Assembly (NCBI GenBank): GCA_040753135.1
Contig: JBFMGR010000008.1
Span: forward strand, 1-39,307
Length of the DNA: 39,307 nt
Direction: 5' to 3'
From: Patescibacteria group bacterium
Lineage (GTDB): Bacteria > Patescibacteriota > Minisyncoccia > UBA6257 > Brennerbacteraceae
Positions 4,861 through 34,642 of the stretch are shown piece by piece. Position 1 is the stretch's first letter; every line of letters starts with the position of its first letter. The notes under the pieces were generated by a model, which saw only the letters and a list, made by a program, of their open reading frames with translations, was not told the DNA's origin and ran no database searches. The position numbers and the translations under genes were made by a program.

Positions 4861-4904
4861 TATTTCTATTTAAATTCCGCGATCGCGGAATTTAAATAGA
4901 AATA
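4861..4904. repeat. 44-bp perfect palindrome
   Basis: The two 22-bp arms (4861-4882 and 4883-4904) are exact reverse complements with no spacer, centred on GCGATCGC. It could extrude as a cruciform or, if transcribed, form a very stable hairpin. It separates the pilin-like gene at 4946 from the TPR-like ORF and supplies the stop codon that closes that ORF upstream. Confidence 0.85.
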
Positions 4905-4945: not shown

Positions 4946-5350
4946 CTACCAGCTGGTGTTGGTTTCAATTGAGCGCTTGATTTTATAAGCTTGGCCAGAA
5001 GCAGGTGAAGTACCAATGCTTTTCAGCTTAACTGCTTGACCAGGTGTTGTTGGCGAAATCAATTGAATATCTTTTCGGCGGCAACAAAGCGTATTATTAG
5101 TTAATTCGGGCCGGGGCTCTGACGGATCTTTTAATAGAACATAAAACTGCCATTCCACCCCGGCATCAGCAGCATAAAAAGCTTTAACGGAATCGAGAAC
5201 CGCGCCCAAACGCCTTAATTCTTTGGTAATACTTAAACTAATTGCCGCGCCAGTAACAAAAATTCCGGTAATTGCCAGAATAACAATTAGCATAATCTGC
5301 CCGGGAGCAGATTTTCGGCAGAGTTGTTTAATTTTCCGTTTCTTAAGCAT
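4946..5350 (-). CDS. Prepilin-like protein (PilX-type minor pilin)
   Basis: Membrane-anchored type IV pilus component by leader and position. The leader MLKKRKIKQLCRKSAPG ends in Gly, followed by QIMLIVILAITGIFVTGAAISLS, a hydrophobic helix. Next comes the FYAADAGVEWQFY motif typical of PilX-like pilins. The usual Phe at +1 is replaced by Gln and the Glu at +5 is missing, as in PilX-like proteins of this group. Start codon and leader lie inside the 143-bp repeat at 5301-5443. A relic leader starts upstream at 5492 (MKQFSNETMKQCKS...) and would join the same body in frame if the repeat were removed. It is the last gene of the pilin series. Confidence 0.7.
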   Translation of the reverse strand: MLKKRKIKQLCRKSAPGQIMLIVILAITGIFVTGAAISLSITKELRRLGAVLDSVKAFYAADAGVEWQFYVLLKDPSEPRPELTNNTLCCRRKDIQLISPTTPGQAVKLKSIGTSPASGQAYKIKRSIETNTSW

Positions 5351-5443
5351 AGATATTTAATAATTGTTATAAGTTTTATTTATTTCATCTAAGAAAATAT
5401 CATTGAACAATCTCAAGGAAAATGCCGAAAATTCACTACCGGA
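5301..5443 (-). mobile_element. MITE-like element, copy 1, donating a prepilin leader
   Basis: A 143-bp element identical to 6046-6188. Its termini are imperfect inverted repeats: CCGGGAGCAGATTTTCGGCA at the left, and CCGGTAGTGAATTTTCGGCA read inward from the right (16 of 20 positions equal). The flanking direct repeats are TCTGC at 5296-5300 and 5444-5448, consistent with a 5-bp target-site duplication. It has no transposase, so it would need one in trans. Read on the minus strand it carries an AT-rich leader, an ATG and 17 codons ending at the Pro-Gly before the prepilin cleavage site. The orientation given is that of the reading frame. Confidence 0.75.
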
Positions 5444-5492
5444 TCTGCACGGATTTACATTGTTTCATTGTCTCATTGCTAAATTGCTTCAT
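5444..5492 (-). pseudogene. Relic prepilin leader upstream of copy 1
   Basis: The minus strand reads MKQFSNETMKQCKSVQIR then TAG, the stop being created by the 143-bp element. The first six residues equal the leader of the pilin at 6370-6879. If the element plus one TCTGC copy is removed, the frame runs straight into QIMLIVILAITG of the gene at 4946-5350. The leader is built of degenerate 8-bp units (CATTGTTT, CATTGTCT, CATTGCTA, AATTGCTT on the plus strand). Confidence 0.6.
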
Positions 5493-5576
5493 CGTTTTAC
5501 TAGTATACTGCTTTATCGTTTTTGTAAATTTTTTAGATTTATTGAAAATTGCAAATTGAGAATTGAGAATTTATTC

Positions 5577-6095
5577 TTAGATTCCCGCTCGTCTCTGAGT
5601 AATCGTTGTCTGCAAATAAAACGAACTGTCTTGGAGATTAATTTCCGGTTTGACCTGAAAAAGCAAAGTTACGCTTGGCTGGCAATTAGGCCGTTGCCAG
5701 CAACCAGCAACGTCAAACCTGGTAATTTCCAAACTCTCTGAAGTGATTGGCAAAACTTCGGTGCCTTCACGCCGAAACATTTTCCCCTGATCTAAAAAAT
5801 ACTCGACTCCCTGGCCGTCCTTATTAAGAAAGGAGAGGGTCTTAGTTTGGGGATTAAAATTAAGATTGCTTCCCTCTTTAATCTCCCGGGTCATTGTTTC
5901 CAAAATAAACCGAAGATTGGCTTGAGAATCTAAACTATTAAAAATGTAACGATGGCTTCGGAAAACGCTTATTAAAGTGCCGGTGACTACTCCAATCAAG
6001 AGGCCAAAAATAGTAAAGGAGATTAGAACCTCGGCTAAGGTAAACCCGGGAGCAGATTTTCGGCAGAGTTGTTTAATTTTCCGTTTCTTAAGCAT
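5577..6095 (-). CDS. Prepilin-like protein (PilV/GspI-J type)
   Basis: Minor pilin or pseudopilin, inserted in the inner membrane and processed by PilD. The leader MLKKRKIKQLCRKSAPG is followed by FTLAEVLISFTIFGLLIGVVTGTLISV, a canonical G/FTLxE site with Glu at +5 and a hydrophobic helix. The C-terminal part (QANLRFILETMTREIKEGSNL...) resembles PilW/GspJ-type minor pilins. The length of 172 aa is ordinary. The start codon and leader come from the 143-bp element at 6046-6188 and are identical to those of the next gene down. An upstream relic leader is out of frame with the body. Confidence 0.82.
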   Translation of the reverse strand: MLKKRKIKQLCRKSAPGFTLAEVLISFTIFGLLIGVVTGTLISVFRSHRYIFNSLDSQANLRFILETMTREIKEGSNLNFNPQTKTLSFLNKDGQGVEYFLDQGKMFRREGTEVLPITSESLEITRFDVAGCWQRPNCQPSVTLLFQVKPEINLQDSSFYLQTTITQRRAGI

Positions 6096-6188
6096 AGATA
6101 TTTAATAATTGTTATAAGTTTTATTTATTTCATCTAAGAAAATATCATTGAACAATCTCAAGGAAAATGCCGAAAATTCACTACCGGA
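6046..6188 (-). mobile_element. MITE-like element, copy 2, donating a prepilin leader
   Basis: Base-for-base identical to 5301-5443, with the same imperfect inverted termini. Here the flanking direct repeats are TAAAC (6041-6045 and 6189-6193), different from those of copy 1. That argues for independent insertion rather than a segmental duplication. The insertion point relative to the pilin gene is the same: right at the codon before the cleavage site, in the same frame and orientation. Confidence 0.75.
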
Positions 6189-6192
6189 TAAA

Positions 6193-6238
6193 CTCGGCTC
6201 GGCTTTTGTCCAATTCCCAATTCCCAATCAATCTTCAT
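6193..6238 (-). pseudogene. Relic, out-of-frame prepilin leader upstream of copy 2
   Basis: The minus strand opens MKIDWELGIGQKPSR, resembling the live leader MNKNWKLGIGNWKF of the pilin at 8489-8959 and also built of AATTGGG-like 7-bp units. If the element and one TAAAC copy are removed, the leader is one base out of frame with FTLAEV of the downstream pilin. This may reflect repeat-number change before the insertion or later decay. Confidence 0.45.
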
Positions 6239-6369: not shown

Positions 6370-6879
6370 TTACTCTGCTGGAACGCCAAACCAATCATAT
6401 AAGTGATCTTCAACCAAAACAGAAAATTGGTTGTCTTTTGTCCGCCAAACCACTTCAGATAAAACCCTCAAATGAGTTGAATCAATTCTCTGAAGCGTAA
6501 TTGTCCGAGTAAAATTAGACGACTCCCCAGAAGAATATTGATAGCCCCGGACAAAATTAAACTTTAACGGCTCGCCTGAAGCACGAGTGAAAGAACCGAG
6601 ATAATCAACTTGATAACTGCCATTAGTAAGCTGGTAATTAAATCTTTGCCCCTTAAGCCAGTTCTCGGTCCGTTTTTTTATTACTAACTCAACCCCCTCT
6701 TGAGCCAAAAAAGAAGCGGTCAAATTATTGCGGATATAAGAAAGGGCATAAATACCATAATTAACCAAAGCAAAAATGCTGCCAAAAACCATCATAATCA
6801 GGGTGGCCGCAATCATTAACTCAATTAGAGTAAAACCTTTTTTACATCGCCCCATTGCCCCATTGCTAAATTGCTTCAT
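6370..6879 (-). CDS. Prepilin-like protein (minor pilin)
   Basis: The leader MKQFSNGAMGRCKKG is followed by FTLIELMIAATLIMMVFGSIFALVNYG, a standard G/FTLIE processing site and transmembrane helix; the soluble part follows from about residue 45. FLAQEGVELVIKKRTENWL resembles PilV/GspI-type minor pilins. The product is exported by the pilus machinery and cleaved and methylated by PilD. The ATG at 6877-6879 is supported by the leader. The leader codons lie in degenerate 8-bp repeats (CATTGCCC-type, 6845-6868). It lies between the pilin at 6936 and the two element-borne pilins. Confidence 0.82.
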   Translation of the reverse strand: MKQFSNGAMGRCKKGFTLIELMIAATLIMMVFGSIFALVNYGIYALSYIRNNLTASFLAQEGVELVIKKRTENWLKGQRFNYQLTNGSYQVDYLGSFTRASGEPLKFNFVRGYQYSSGESSNFTRTITLQRIDSTHLRVLSEVVWRTKDNQFSVLVEDHLYDWFGVPAE

Positions 6880-6935: not shown

Positions 6936-7511
6936 TTAATTTATCTGGCTAATCTGGCCGGCCCGATTAATAATAATGTTTTTGAATGCCGTTTCTTCAC
7001 TGCCCCGCAAAACCAGTTTAATTATCATTGATTCGGCCGCGGGGAAAAAGATGCTTCTCGGGTAAGGCGGAATAAAAATCACCGGATTAGAACTAGTCTC
7101 TGAAATTCTAATTAAAGAGGGTAAAGCAATTTGCTCTAATTCGATTAAACTATAATCACCAGAGCTAACCCTAGAGCAATCGCTATTAAAAACGGCAAAA
7201 ATAAAATACTTATCCCCGGTTTCCTGGTTAAAGCCAATCCCATAACCGCAAGGAACCTGTCCCTGATAATCAGGGTTCGGTCCATTATATTCTTGGCTTA
7301 AATAGGCTAAATCCTGAACCCGCCTGATGTCAAGAATAAACTTGTCGGCAAACTGGAGCAGCTGGTTTTGGTTATTAGCCGTCCGGTTAAAAGTGATTAA
7401 CATTGAGGTAAACATCGTCGCAATAGCCAAAATCACCAGCATCTCAATTATTGTCTGCCCCCTTTTGGCAAATGGCAAATGGCAAATGGCAAATAGTTGT
7501 TTTTTAAACAT
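6936..7511 (-). CDS. Prepilin-like protein with repeat-coded leader
   Basis: The ATG at 7509-7511 gives the leader MFKKQLFAICHLPFAKRG, then QTIIEMLVILAIATMFTSMLITF (Glu at +5, hydrophobic helix), followed by a soluble domain with FADKFILDIRRVQDLAYLSQEY, as in GspH/FimT-like pilins. An upstream in-frame start at 7566-7568 would overlap pilD and put the leader internally, so I reject it. The start lies directly behind the pilD stop (7513). Much of the leader is encoded by four exact 7-bp tandem units (7467-7494). Because 7 is not a multiple of 3, a change of one unit would shift the frame. Confidence 0.82.
   Translation of the reverse strand: MFKKQLFAICHLPFAKRGQTIIEMLVILAIATMFTSMLITFNRTANNQNQLLQFADKFILDIRRVQDLAYLSQEYNGPNPDYQGQVPCGYGIGFNQETGDKYFIFAVFNSDCSRVSSGDYSLIELEQIALPSLIRISETSSNPVIFIPPYPRSIFFPAAESMIIKLVLRGSEETAFKNIIINRAGQISQIN
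7467..7494. repeat. Four perfect 7-bp tandem repeats in a pilin leader
   Basis: GGCAAAT repeated four times on the plus strand, inside the prepilin leader of the gene at 6936-7511. It resembles the loose GGCAAAT-type words in the spacer at 8405-8430. Confidence 0.9.
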
Positions 7512-7512
7512 T

Positions 7513-8409
7513 CTAAAAGAATAAATTGGGGAAAAGATTAAAGTAAACTGAAAGTATTTTAGCACCAAACAAAAACATTGTCATTGCGCCCAAAGCTAAA
7601 AACGGGCCAAAAGGAATAATATCTTTAAAAGTTTTTCTTTTTAAGCCAATTAAAATCAGGCTCACCAAAGTACCAAAAACAAAAGATAAGATTAAAACCC
7701 ATAAAATGTCCGGCCAACCGAAAATCAAACCCAAACCCAAAACCAGCCAGAGATCGCCTAAACCCATGGCTCGGCCCCGAGAAAACAGATAGGCCAAACC
7801 AATAGTCGCCGACCCCAAAGCAACTGCCGGCAAAAGCCGAGTCAACCAGCTGTCTTGACCAAAAAGATAAAAATAATTTTCCGAGAAATAAACTCCGGTT
7901 TTAAAAAAGAACGATTTTTGAAAAAAATAAAAAATATTAATTCCTATACCCAAAATAATTAAAAAATCCAGCAAAAAGCTCGGGATCAGATAGTATTTAA
8001 AATCAAAAATGGCAATCGCTATTAAAACAAAAATAACTAGCCACCAAAAAATTAAATAAGCAAAAAACCAATTCCCCAAAACCAGTTTTAAACCGGAAAA
8101 ATTAACTAATCGCCAATAAACTAAAGTAAAACCAATCCCGGTTATCAGCTCAACCAAAGGATATTGCCAAGAAAGCTTGGCCTGACAAGAGCGACATCTG
8201 CCTTGCTGGACCAAGAAACTTAAAATCGGGATTAATTCATACCACTGAAGAGTTTTTTGGCAAGAAAAACAATAAGACCGGCCTTTGATTATTTTTAGAA
8301 GATTAAACACCTGATCCTGCCTCTGGGGATTTAAACGAAAGACTAAAACATTGATAAAACTGCCAACCGCTAAACCAACTAAGAAACTAAACCACATAGT
8401 TTTTGGCAA
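7513..8409 (-). CDS. pilD: Prepilin peptidase / N-methyltransferase PilD
   Basis: Polytopic membrane aspartic peptidase that removes prepilin leaders and methylates the new N-terminus. The N-terminal domain has the FLVGLAVGSFINVLVFRL helix and two CxxC pairs, CFSC at about residues 47-50 and CRSC at about 73-76, a zinc-binding loop. The catalytic Asp residues are in IFDFKYYLIPS and GLGDLWLVLGLGLIFG. Several further hydrophobic helices make up the 298 residues. MWFSF at residue 5 (8397) is an alternative start. It lies between the pilin at 8489 and the next prepilin gene, which starts 2 bp downstream. Confidence 0.95.
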   Translation of the reverse strand: MPKTMWFSFLVGLAVGSFINVLVFRLNPQRQDQVFNLLKIIKGRSYCFSCQKTLQWYELIPILSFLVQQGRCRSCQAKLSWQYPLVELITGIGFTLVYWRLVNFSGLKLVLGNWFFAYLIFWWLVIFVLIAIAIFDFKYYLIPSFLLDFLIILGIGINIFYFFQKSFFFKTGVYFSENYFYLFGQDSWLTRLLPAVALGSATIGLAYLFSRGRAMGLGDLWLVLGLGLIFGWPDILWVLILSFVFGTLVSLILIGLKRKTFKDIIPFGPFLALGAMTMFLFGAKILSVYFNLFPNLFF

Positions 8410-8488: not shown

Positions 8489-8959
8489 TTACAGTTCAAT
8501 GCAATAACCAGGATCGTCGCAACCAAGTCCATAAACTGTGCCATCAACATCATCGCGCAAAGCCGAGCTGTCCCCGCTTTCCAAGGTTGCTTTTAAAACA
8601 TAATGTAAGCCATTGCCGCTGGAACGATATTCATACTGATAAGATGAACGGTTCAGAGGATCTCGGGGCAGCCTTTTAACTCCAATATCAGCACTGACTA
8701 ATTCAGTTTCCAAACTAATCCAGTCAGTCTGGCCAGGATAAGTGTTTTCCTTATTAAAATAAATCTCCAGAGCATTTTGAGTATTTCGCAGATCAGCAAT
8801 CCTCCGAGTGTCTCGGCCCTGAGCCCGAACTCCGCTCAAGCCAACCAGAACCATTGCGCTCAAAAGCCCGATCACGGTAATGACCACAAGAAGCTCGATC
8901 AGGGTGAAACCTTTAATAAATTTCCAATTTCCAATTCCCAATTTCCAATTTTTATTCAT
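8489..8959 (-). CDS. Major-type pilin (PilA/GspG-like)
   Basis: The leader MNKNWKLGIGNWKFIKG is followed by FTLIELLVVITVIGLLSAMVLVGLSGVRAQGRDTRR, the classic pilin N-terminus with Glu at +5. The soluble part (RNTQNALEIYFNKENTYP, then GNGLHYVLKATLESGD) is typical of GspG/PilA-like major pilins of CPR bacteria. Two Cys residues near the C-terminus (GLGCDDPGYC) could form a D-region disulfide. It is first in the pilin series directly after pilC and thus the best candidate for the main pilus subunit. The leader contains four 7-bp tandem units (8923-8950). Confidence 0.88.
   Translation of the reverse strand: MNKNWKLGIGNWKFIKGFTLIELLVVITVIGLLSAMVLVGLSGVRAQGRDTRRIADLRNTQNALEIYFNKENTYPGQTDWISLETELVSADIGVKRLPRDPLNRSSYQYEYRSSGNGLHYVLKATLESGDSSALRDDVDGTVYGLGCDDPGYCIEL
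8923..8950. repeat. Four 7-bp tandem repeats in the main pilin leader
   Basis: Units TCCAATT, TCCAATT, CCCAATT, TCCAATT on the plus strand (one mismatch), encoding most of NWKLGIGNWKF in the leader of the pilin at 8489-8959. Confidence 0.85.

Positions 8960-28841: not shown

Positions 28842-34642
<5,801 letters not shown>

Follow-up and report, generated by a model that had tools for sequence, protein, structure and literature searches.

Bacterial MITEs are short, carry no transposase gene, end in inverted termini (TIRs), are flanked by target-site duplications and lie mostly in intergenic regions (PMC10969869). In Yersinia, an RU-2/YPAL MITE forms part of the predicted secretion signal of the pestis protein YPO1552 (Delihas 2007, PMC2759123; PMC2229807), and Rickettsia palindromic elements (RPEs) are inserted in frame in many genes (PMC10969869, PMC2229807). 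These precedents mean that coding sequence derived from mobile elements, and even a secretion signal of this origin, is already known. Here, two copies of a MITE-like element encode the start codon and leader of two adjacent pilin genes in a Patescibacteria group bacterium. The elements are like the described bacterial MITEs (PMC10969869) in size, TIRs, duplications, mostly intergenic location and diverged genomic copies, but no parent insertion sequence was identified for them and their in-frame copies are concentrated at the prepilin cleavage site. As with YPO1552, a MITE lies within a predicted secretion signal, and relatives have unrelated signal sequences; however, the Yersinia case concerns a Sec-type signal peptide in a single gene, encoded by a hydrophobic element ORF, whereas here it is a type IV prepilin leader, in several genes and two genera, with a cut site that would be rebuilt by the geometry of insertion. 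The RPEs are likewise palindromic, about 100-150 bp long and in frame in protein genes; they are set apart by lying inside many unrelated proteins and being retained in the product, whereas elements of the present type lie in a leader that is expected to be cut off, their other copies being intergenic.

The window, by which we mean the whole stretch of DNA analysed (39,307 nucleotides), contains a type IV pilus cluster on the minus strand, comprising two T2SSE ATPases, T2SSF, a prepilin, the prepilin peptidase and then four more pilin genes, the last two of which (5577-6095 and 4946-5350) start inside two identical segments. The other prepilins of the window (8489-8959, 6936-7568 and 6370-6879) have leaders that look built of short tandem repeats, such as NWKLGIGNWK (7-base units), ICHLPFAK (TGGCAAA units, of which the window holds 24 where about 5 are expected) and KQFSNGAMG (8-base units); repeat-like leaders also occur at other prepilins of the same genome (L164) and in the contig L024. 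A perfect 44-bp palindrome without a loop (TATTTCTATTTAAATTCCGCGATCGCGGAATTTAAATAGAAATA, 4861-4904) stands just downstream of the cluster's last pilin gene (minus strand), and farther away the window carries a DNA gyrase B gene with an in-frame intein (28842-32492, minus strand; Pfam Intein_splicing at 79 bits, with a weak LAGLIDADG match). The features of the two genes and their elements are as follows.

4946-5350, minus strand: gene 1, pilin-like protein with mature start QIMLIVILAITG, no Glu5 and no confident Pfam hit, adjoining gene 2 in relatives too
5577-6095, minus strand: gene 2, prepilin with N-methylation motif (PF07963) and mature start FTLAEVLISFTIFG
7513-8409, minus strand: prepilin peptidase (PilD) of the same cluster (PF06750, PF01478), the presumed cutter of these leaders
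5301-5442, minus strand: 142-bp core of element copy 1, at the cleavage site of gene 1, recognised by its identity with copy 2, its TIRs and the family elsewhere
6046-6187, minus strand: 142-bp core of element copy 2, at the cleavage site of gene 2, recognised by its identity with copy 1, its TIRs and the family elsewhere
5301-5320, plus strand: pilin-proximal TIR of copy 1, which read on the minus strand encodes CRKSAP and the GG of Gly(-1)
5423-5442, minus strand: distal TIR of copy 1
6046-6065, plus strand: pilin-proximal TIR of copy 2
6168-6187, minus strand: distal TIR of copy 2
5295-5300, no strand: left target-site duplication of copy 1, ATCTGC, matching the right one at 6/6 bases
5443-5448, no strand: right target-site duplication of copy 1, ATCTGC, matching the left one at 6/6 bases
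6040-6045, no strand: left target-site duplication of copy 2, GTAAAC (on the minus strand GTTTAC, the Gly-Phe-Thr codons)
6188-6193, no strand: right target-site duplication of copy 2, ATAAAC, matching at 5/6 bases, that is, TAAAC
5300-5350, minus strand: leader-coding stretch of gene 1 (MLKKRKIKQLCRKSAPG), with the ATG within the element and the last Gly-codon base from the duplication
6045-6095, minus strand: leader-coding stretch of gene 2 (MLKKRKIKQLCRKSAPG), on the same basis of in-frame reading and junction analysis

Gene 2 and its neighbours match the type IV prepilin motif (PF07963, N_methyl; for gene 2, 25.8 bits against a cut-off of 21.2, with FTLAE) and keep Gly(-1), here with a leader encoded by a mobile element. 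Gene 1 has no PF07963 hit and starts QIMLI, without Glu5; yet its Gly/Gln junction (the slash marking the cleavage site) and its position beside gene 2 are conserved in relatives, and we therefore call it pilin-like. Each copy supplies the ATG and MLKKRKIKQLCRKSAP in frame, and the resulting leader, MLKKRKIKQLCRKSAPG, precedes the mature starts FTLAEV (gene 2) and QIMLIV (gene 1). The element provides a start codon and a leader, as the preliminary description had proposed, to genes that are unrelated to each other, and the leader ends in frame at the glycine; the last base of the Gly codon belongs to the repeat and not to the element, the Gly(-1) codon being composed in both copies of GG from the element and the first base of the direct repeat. 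Translation would begin at the element's ATG and the leader would be cut by PilD; no obvious ribosome-binding site is seen in the sequence for this start codon.

The copies lie 745 bp apart in the same orientation and are 100% identical over 145 nt (5300-5444 versus 6045-6189, the core plus one shared base on each side), an identity beyond chance, and they are the only close copies of the 142-bp segment in the 622,592-bp genome (a draft in 18 contigs). Their TIRs (CCGGGAGCAGATTTTCGGCA and TGCCGAAAATTCACTACCGG) are 20 nt long and 80% complementary. Two identical segments with imperfect inverted termini of about 20 bp had been recognised from the start, although with a length of 143 bp; the segment is real but its core is 142 bp, and the difference comes from a single A that may be counted with either the element or the repeat. 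The flanking direct repeats, described there as 5 bp long and different between the copies, are real and do differ (5-6 bp; ATCTGC/ATCTGC versus GTAAAC/ATAAAC). Taken alone, the inverted ends of the window copies are weak (P value of about 0.07 for the de novo inverted-repeat score, in a test of 45 prepilin junctions from six genomes and L024 where strong scores came only from hairpins of the genome G002), and the TIR evidence therefore rests on family members elsewhere.

End sequences close to CCCGNAGTRRATTTTYRGCA (at most 3 mismatches) recur elsewhere in the same genome in facing pairs 67-303 bp apart. Four examples from the end-pattern search are listed here.

C1, 63921-64068: family element in the same genome
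C5, 880-1017: family element in the same genome
C10, 8752-8890: family element in the same genome
C4, 25627-25762: family element in the same genome

Because matching end pairs are found in the family elsewhere, the TIRs of the window copies can be taken as true ends. The same ends are present in three other genera of the same bacterial family (G001, G002 and G005) and, within the class, in two additional families (G383 and G412), whereas few of the remaining genomes in the search have them; in the distant family represented by G383, two elements stand back to back with a common flank, GGTTGACC (L190, on contig C6, 1416-1547). Pattern searches found about 10 elements in the source genome and about 30 overall, which are minimum numbers. 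At 64-166 bp (303 bp in one case), the elements have no room for a transposase gene, and those elsewhere in the source genome are strongly diverged from the window pair. Perfect 5-bp direct repeats flank 16 of the 27 paired elements, both window copies among them, whereas 1.5 were expected by permutation (right flanks shuffled among elements; 0 of 20,000 shuffles reached 16). The target duplication is 5-6 bp long and the flank consensus across paired elements is GTNNAC. Short, without a transposase gene, bounded by TIRs and target-site duplications and dispersed in multiple copies, the elements are, by the anatomy read from their sequence, a MITE-like family, and the mobile-element reading of the preliminary description is supported by the duplications and by the diverged copies that this genome and related genera contain. 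The whole segment, compared with 100 relatives, gave only chance-like matches of 15-50 bases.

The copies outside pilin genes that the preliminary description suggested looking for are nearly all intergenic, as are nearly all of the approximately 31 mapped elements of this first family. A few extend 6-7 bases into the start or end of a gene (for example, a histidyl-tRNA synthetase-like gene in C5), two further elements in G002 fall in short open frames that may or may not be genes, and only the four in prepilin leaders are clear in-frame coding insertions. Insertion was presumably mediated by a transposase. We take the element ends to resemble those of IS1380; however, the IS1380-type transposase domain PF13701 (DDE_Tnp_1_4) was absent from all 101 genomes searched, while control genomes matched, and an IS1380 transposase as mobiliser, or an IS1380-family derivative, was rejected. 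PF01609 (DDE_Tnp_1) had no hit in the six genomes of the source family, and the four loci found elsewhere lack such ends, so this enzyme was also discarded. A TIR scan of IMG/VR returned two matches, both rejected as single ends inside the same viral gene. A full-length transposon with the same termini, which had been proposed as a check, did not turn up in these searches.

We conclude that the window copies are very probably non-autonomous, dispersed members of this MITE-like family that inserted at the cleavage sites of two unrelated pilin genes that were already adjacent. In this scheme the element would land at the prepilin-peptidase cleavage site, where the DNA GG-G TTT AC (Gly/Phe-Thr) matches GTNNAC; its GG end and the first duplicated base (G) would rebuild Gly(-1) and leave the mature protein unchanged; the ATG and a basic 16-residue stretch that it brings would replace the former leader, and that leader would stay upstream as an untranslated relic. 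Insertions would be tolerated at such sites since whatever precedes the cleavage point is removed.

Typical prepilin Gly/Phe-Thr codons are GGN TTY ACN. The hexamer from the last Gly-codon base is then NTTYAC, which fits all four fixed bases of GTNNAC when Gly is GGG, and 28 of the 45 prepilin junctions fit at least three of the four. The target of copy 2, GTTTAC, is a textbook fit, whereas that of copy 1, ATCTGC (GCAGAT on the minus strand), fits poorly. The element stops at the second position of the Gly(-1) codon, both in the window copies and in the G002 cases, and its terminal GG is completed to a Gly codon by the G that opens the duplicated target. Prepilin cleavage sites may thus be a natural safe harbour for these elements, an idea to which we give a little less than an even chance: the codons would match the target, the GG end would rebuild Gly and the added peptide would be removed by the prepilin peptidase, for which reasons insertions would be silent in the mature pilus and would recur, with pilus leaders repeatedly rewritten by mobile DNA.

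In G002, which belongs to another genus, elements of the first family likewise occupy the leaders of two adjacent prepilins (L094, 2393-3127 and 3129-3851), in the same orientation and frame. One of these is orthologous to gene 2, and the translated element ends are CRKSTTG and SRKSTTG, compared with CRKSAPG in the window. G002 also carries a second family, whose members are hairpins of 36-42 bp (CCAGCACCACTTTTGC...GCAAAAGTGGTGCTGG) with flanks of the same type. They are placed immediately at Gly(-1) in 5 of the 8 PF07963 prepilins of that genome (one of the five degraded) and occur at about ten further places, most of them intergenic; the five other genomes of the group lack this family. The two families together occupy five of the eight prepilin leaders, in the same register, and upstream of several of these genes relic short leaders can be read that still end in Gly-Phe, as in MEHQKTKYG/FT before QHHFYSAKSKSGAG/FTLLE. 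The probability that 5 of 14 insertions would fall at eight prepilin sites is near 1e-4 by a hand calculation that scales the 16 GTTTAC/GTAAAC sites of the 39.3-kb window to an estimate of about 200 in a genome of 500 kb; this excess shrinks, and may vanish, if most coding sites are lethal, and positive selection is therefore not needed to account for it. At least five element copies, partly nested, lie within 1.3 kb of the G002 pilin locus (L094, on contig C25, 2913-4161), with leaders of about 100 residues.

An alternative is that positive selection retains the elements as portable leader and 5'-region cassettes that give their genes a shared leader or expression control. Both copies do provide an ATG, a basic leader and an upstream region, both window members of the subfamily are in prepilins, and the element transcript folds better than its shuffles (z of -3.39). 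However, inverted ends by themselves predict good folding, which says nothing on function; a promoter scan gave nothing promoter-like within the element and no more matches than shuffled sequence did, and an Rfam search of it had no match. Most family members are intergenic, which indicates that a leader role arises only when an element happens to land in frame on a prepilin site. Target preference, which had been named as a possible guide and is borne out by the GTNNAC consensus, predicts the same pattern when joined with tolerance of leader changes, and is enough to explain it without a selected cassette. We therefore consider that the selected function put forward in the preliminary description is unsupported and, as an account of these copies, unlikely.

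It is also conceivable that only one insertion occurred and was then carried into the other gene by gene conversion or local segmental duplication. The complete identity over 145 nt, in a genome whose other copies are strongly diverged, and the shared orientation of copies only 745 bp apart would fit such a history. Yet each copy has its own matching flanking repeats, which copying into an unoccupied gene could not create, and insertion at the same register is found in another genus as well; we regard a single insertion as quite improbable. Conversion between two copies already inserted could explain their identity, the alternative being two recent insertions. An assembly artefact, through repeat collapse or a chimeric join in a metagenome contig, might be suspected in a draft of 18 contigs, where the repeat is near short-read length, but a chimeric join between the copies would have left mismatched duplications instead of the matching ones seen at each copy, and the pattern recurs in an independent genome; we reject this explanation as highly implausible. 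Least credible is that one pilin gene was duplicated in tandem and that both genes inherited the 142 bp from their common ancestor. This would place the same repeat at the same point of adjacent genes, but we reject it because the mature parts show no relationship in their starting sequence or family match and because the two genes are also neighbours, with leaders unrelated to these, in L023, L024, G001, G002 and G004, contrary to what the preliminary description had named as its refutation.

The gene pair is thus older than the elements. Traces of what preceded them can be read upstream of each copy.

5448-5492, minus strand: relic of the earlier gene 1 leader (MKQFSNETMKQCKSV), resembling the leader now in use at the prepilin 6370-6879
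6193-6228, minus strand: relic of the earlier gene 2 leader (IGNWELDKSRAE), which can be aligned with GIGNWKLRKTRPG, the live leader of the orthologue in L024

The relic MKQFSNETMKQCKS upstream of copy 1 closely resembles MKQFSNGAMGRCKK, the live leader of that neighbouring prepilin. The alignment of IGNWELDKSRAE with GIGNWKLRKTRPG reaches the junction and scores 40, compared with a maximum of 31 in 500 shuffles, although the L024 leader is a heptamer repeat and shuffling loses such periodicity. It had been claimed that removing copy 1 joins MKQFSNETMKQCKS in frame to the pilin body, and it does, but the codon before the cleavage site is then GTG (Val) and not Gly; in gene 2 the old -1 codon is GAG (Glu). 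The lack of Gly at the old cleavage position in the relics would need a later mutation in each gene, or genes that were already defective, and we favour decay after insertion over insertions that repaired damaged sites. Of the empty sites proposed as a check, one was found, in the L024 relative; it is diverged and aligned to low-complexity sequence, and not a clean site with a single target. The L024 contig is filed under Woesebacteria (GW2011_GWB1_39_12) and holds orthologues of the pilin pair, that of gene 2 at 67% identity, and it may be misbinned or misnamed.

Among open-licence papers, we found nothing relevant on MITEs in Patescibacteria or at prepilins, nor any account of prepilin cleavage sites being entered recurrently or of Gly(-1) regenerated by a target duplication; the prepilin-site rule appears to be new. 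In this case the sequence itself indicates why one class of coding site accepts insertions, through a target preference, a Gly-restoring end and a product that is cleaved. This provides a concrete rule that is testable across Patescibacteria, namely a GTNNAC target, a GG end and the same codon phase, and it may explain some of the differences in prepilin leaders seen among related genomes.
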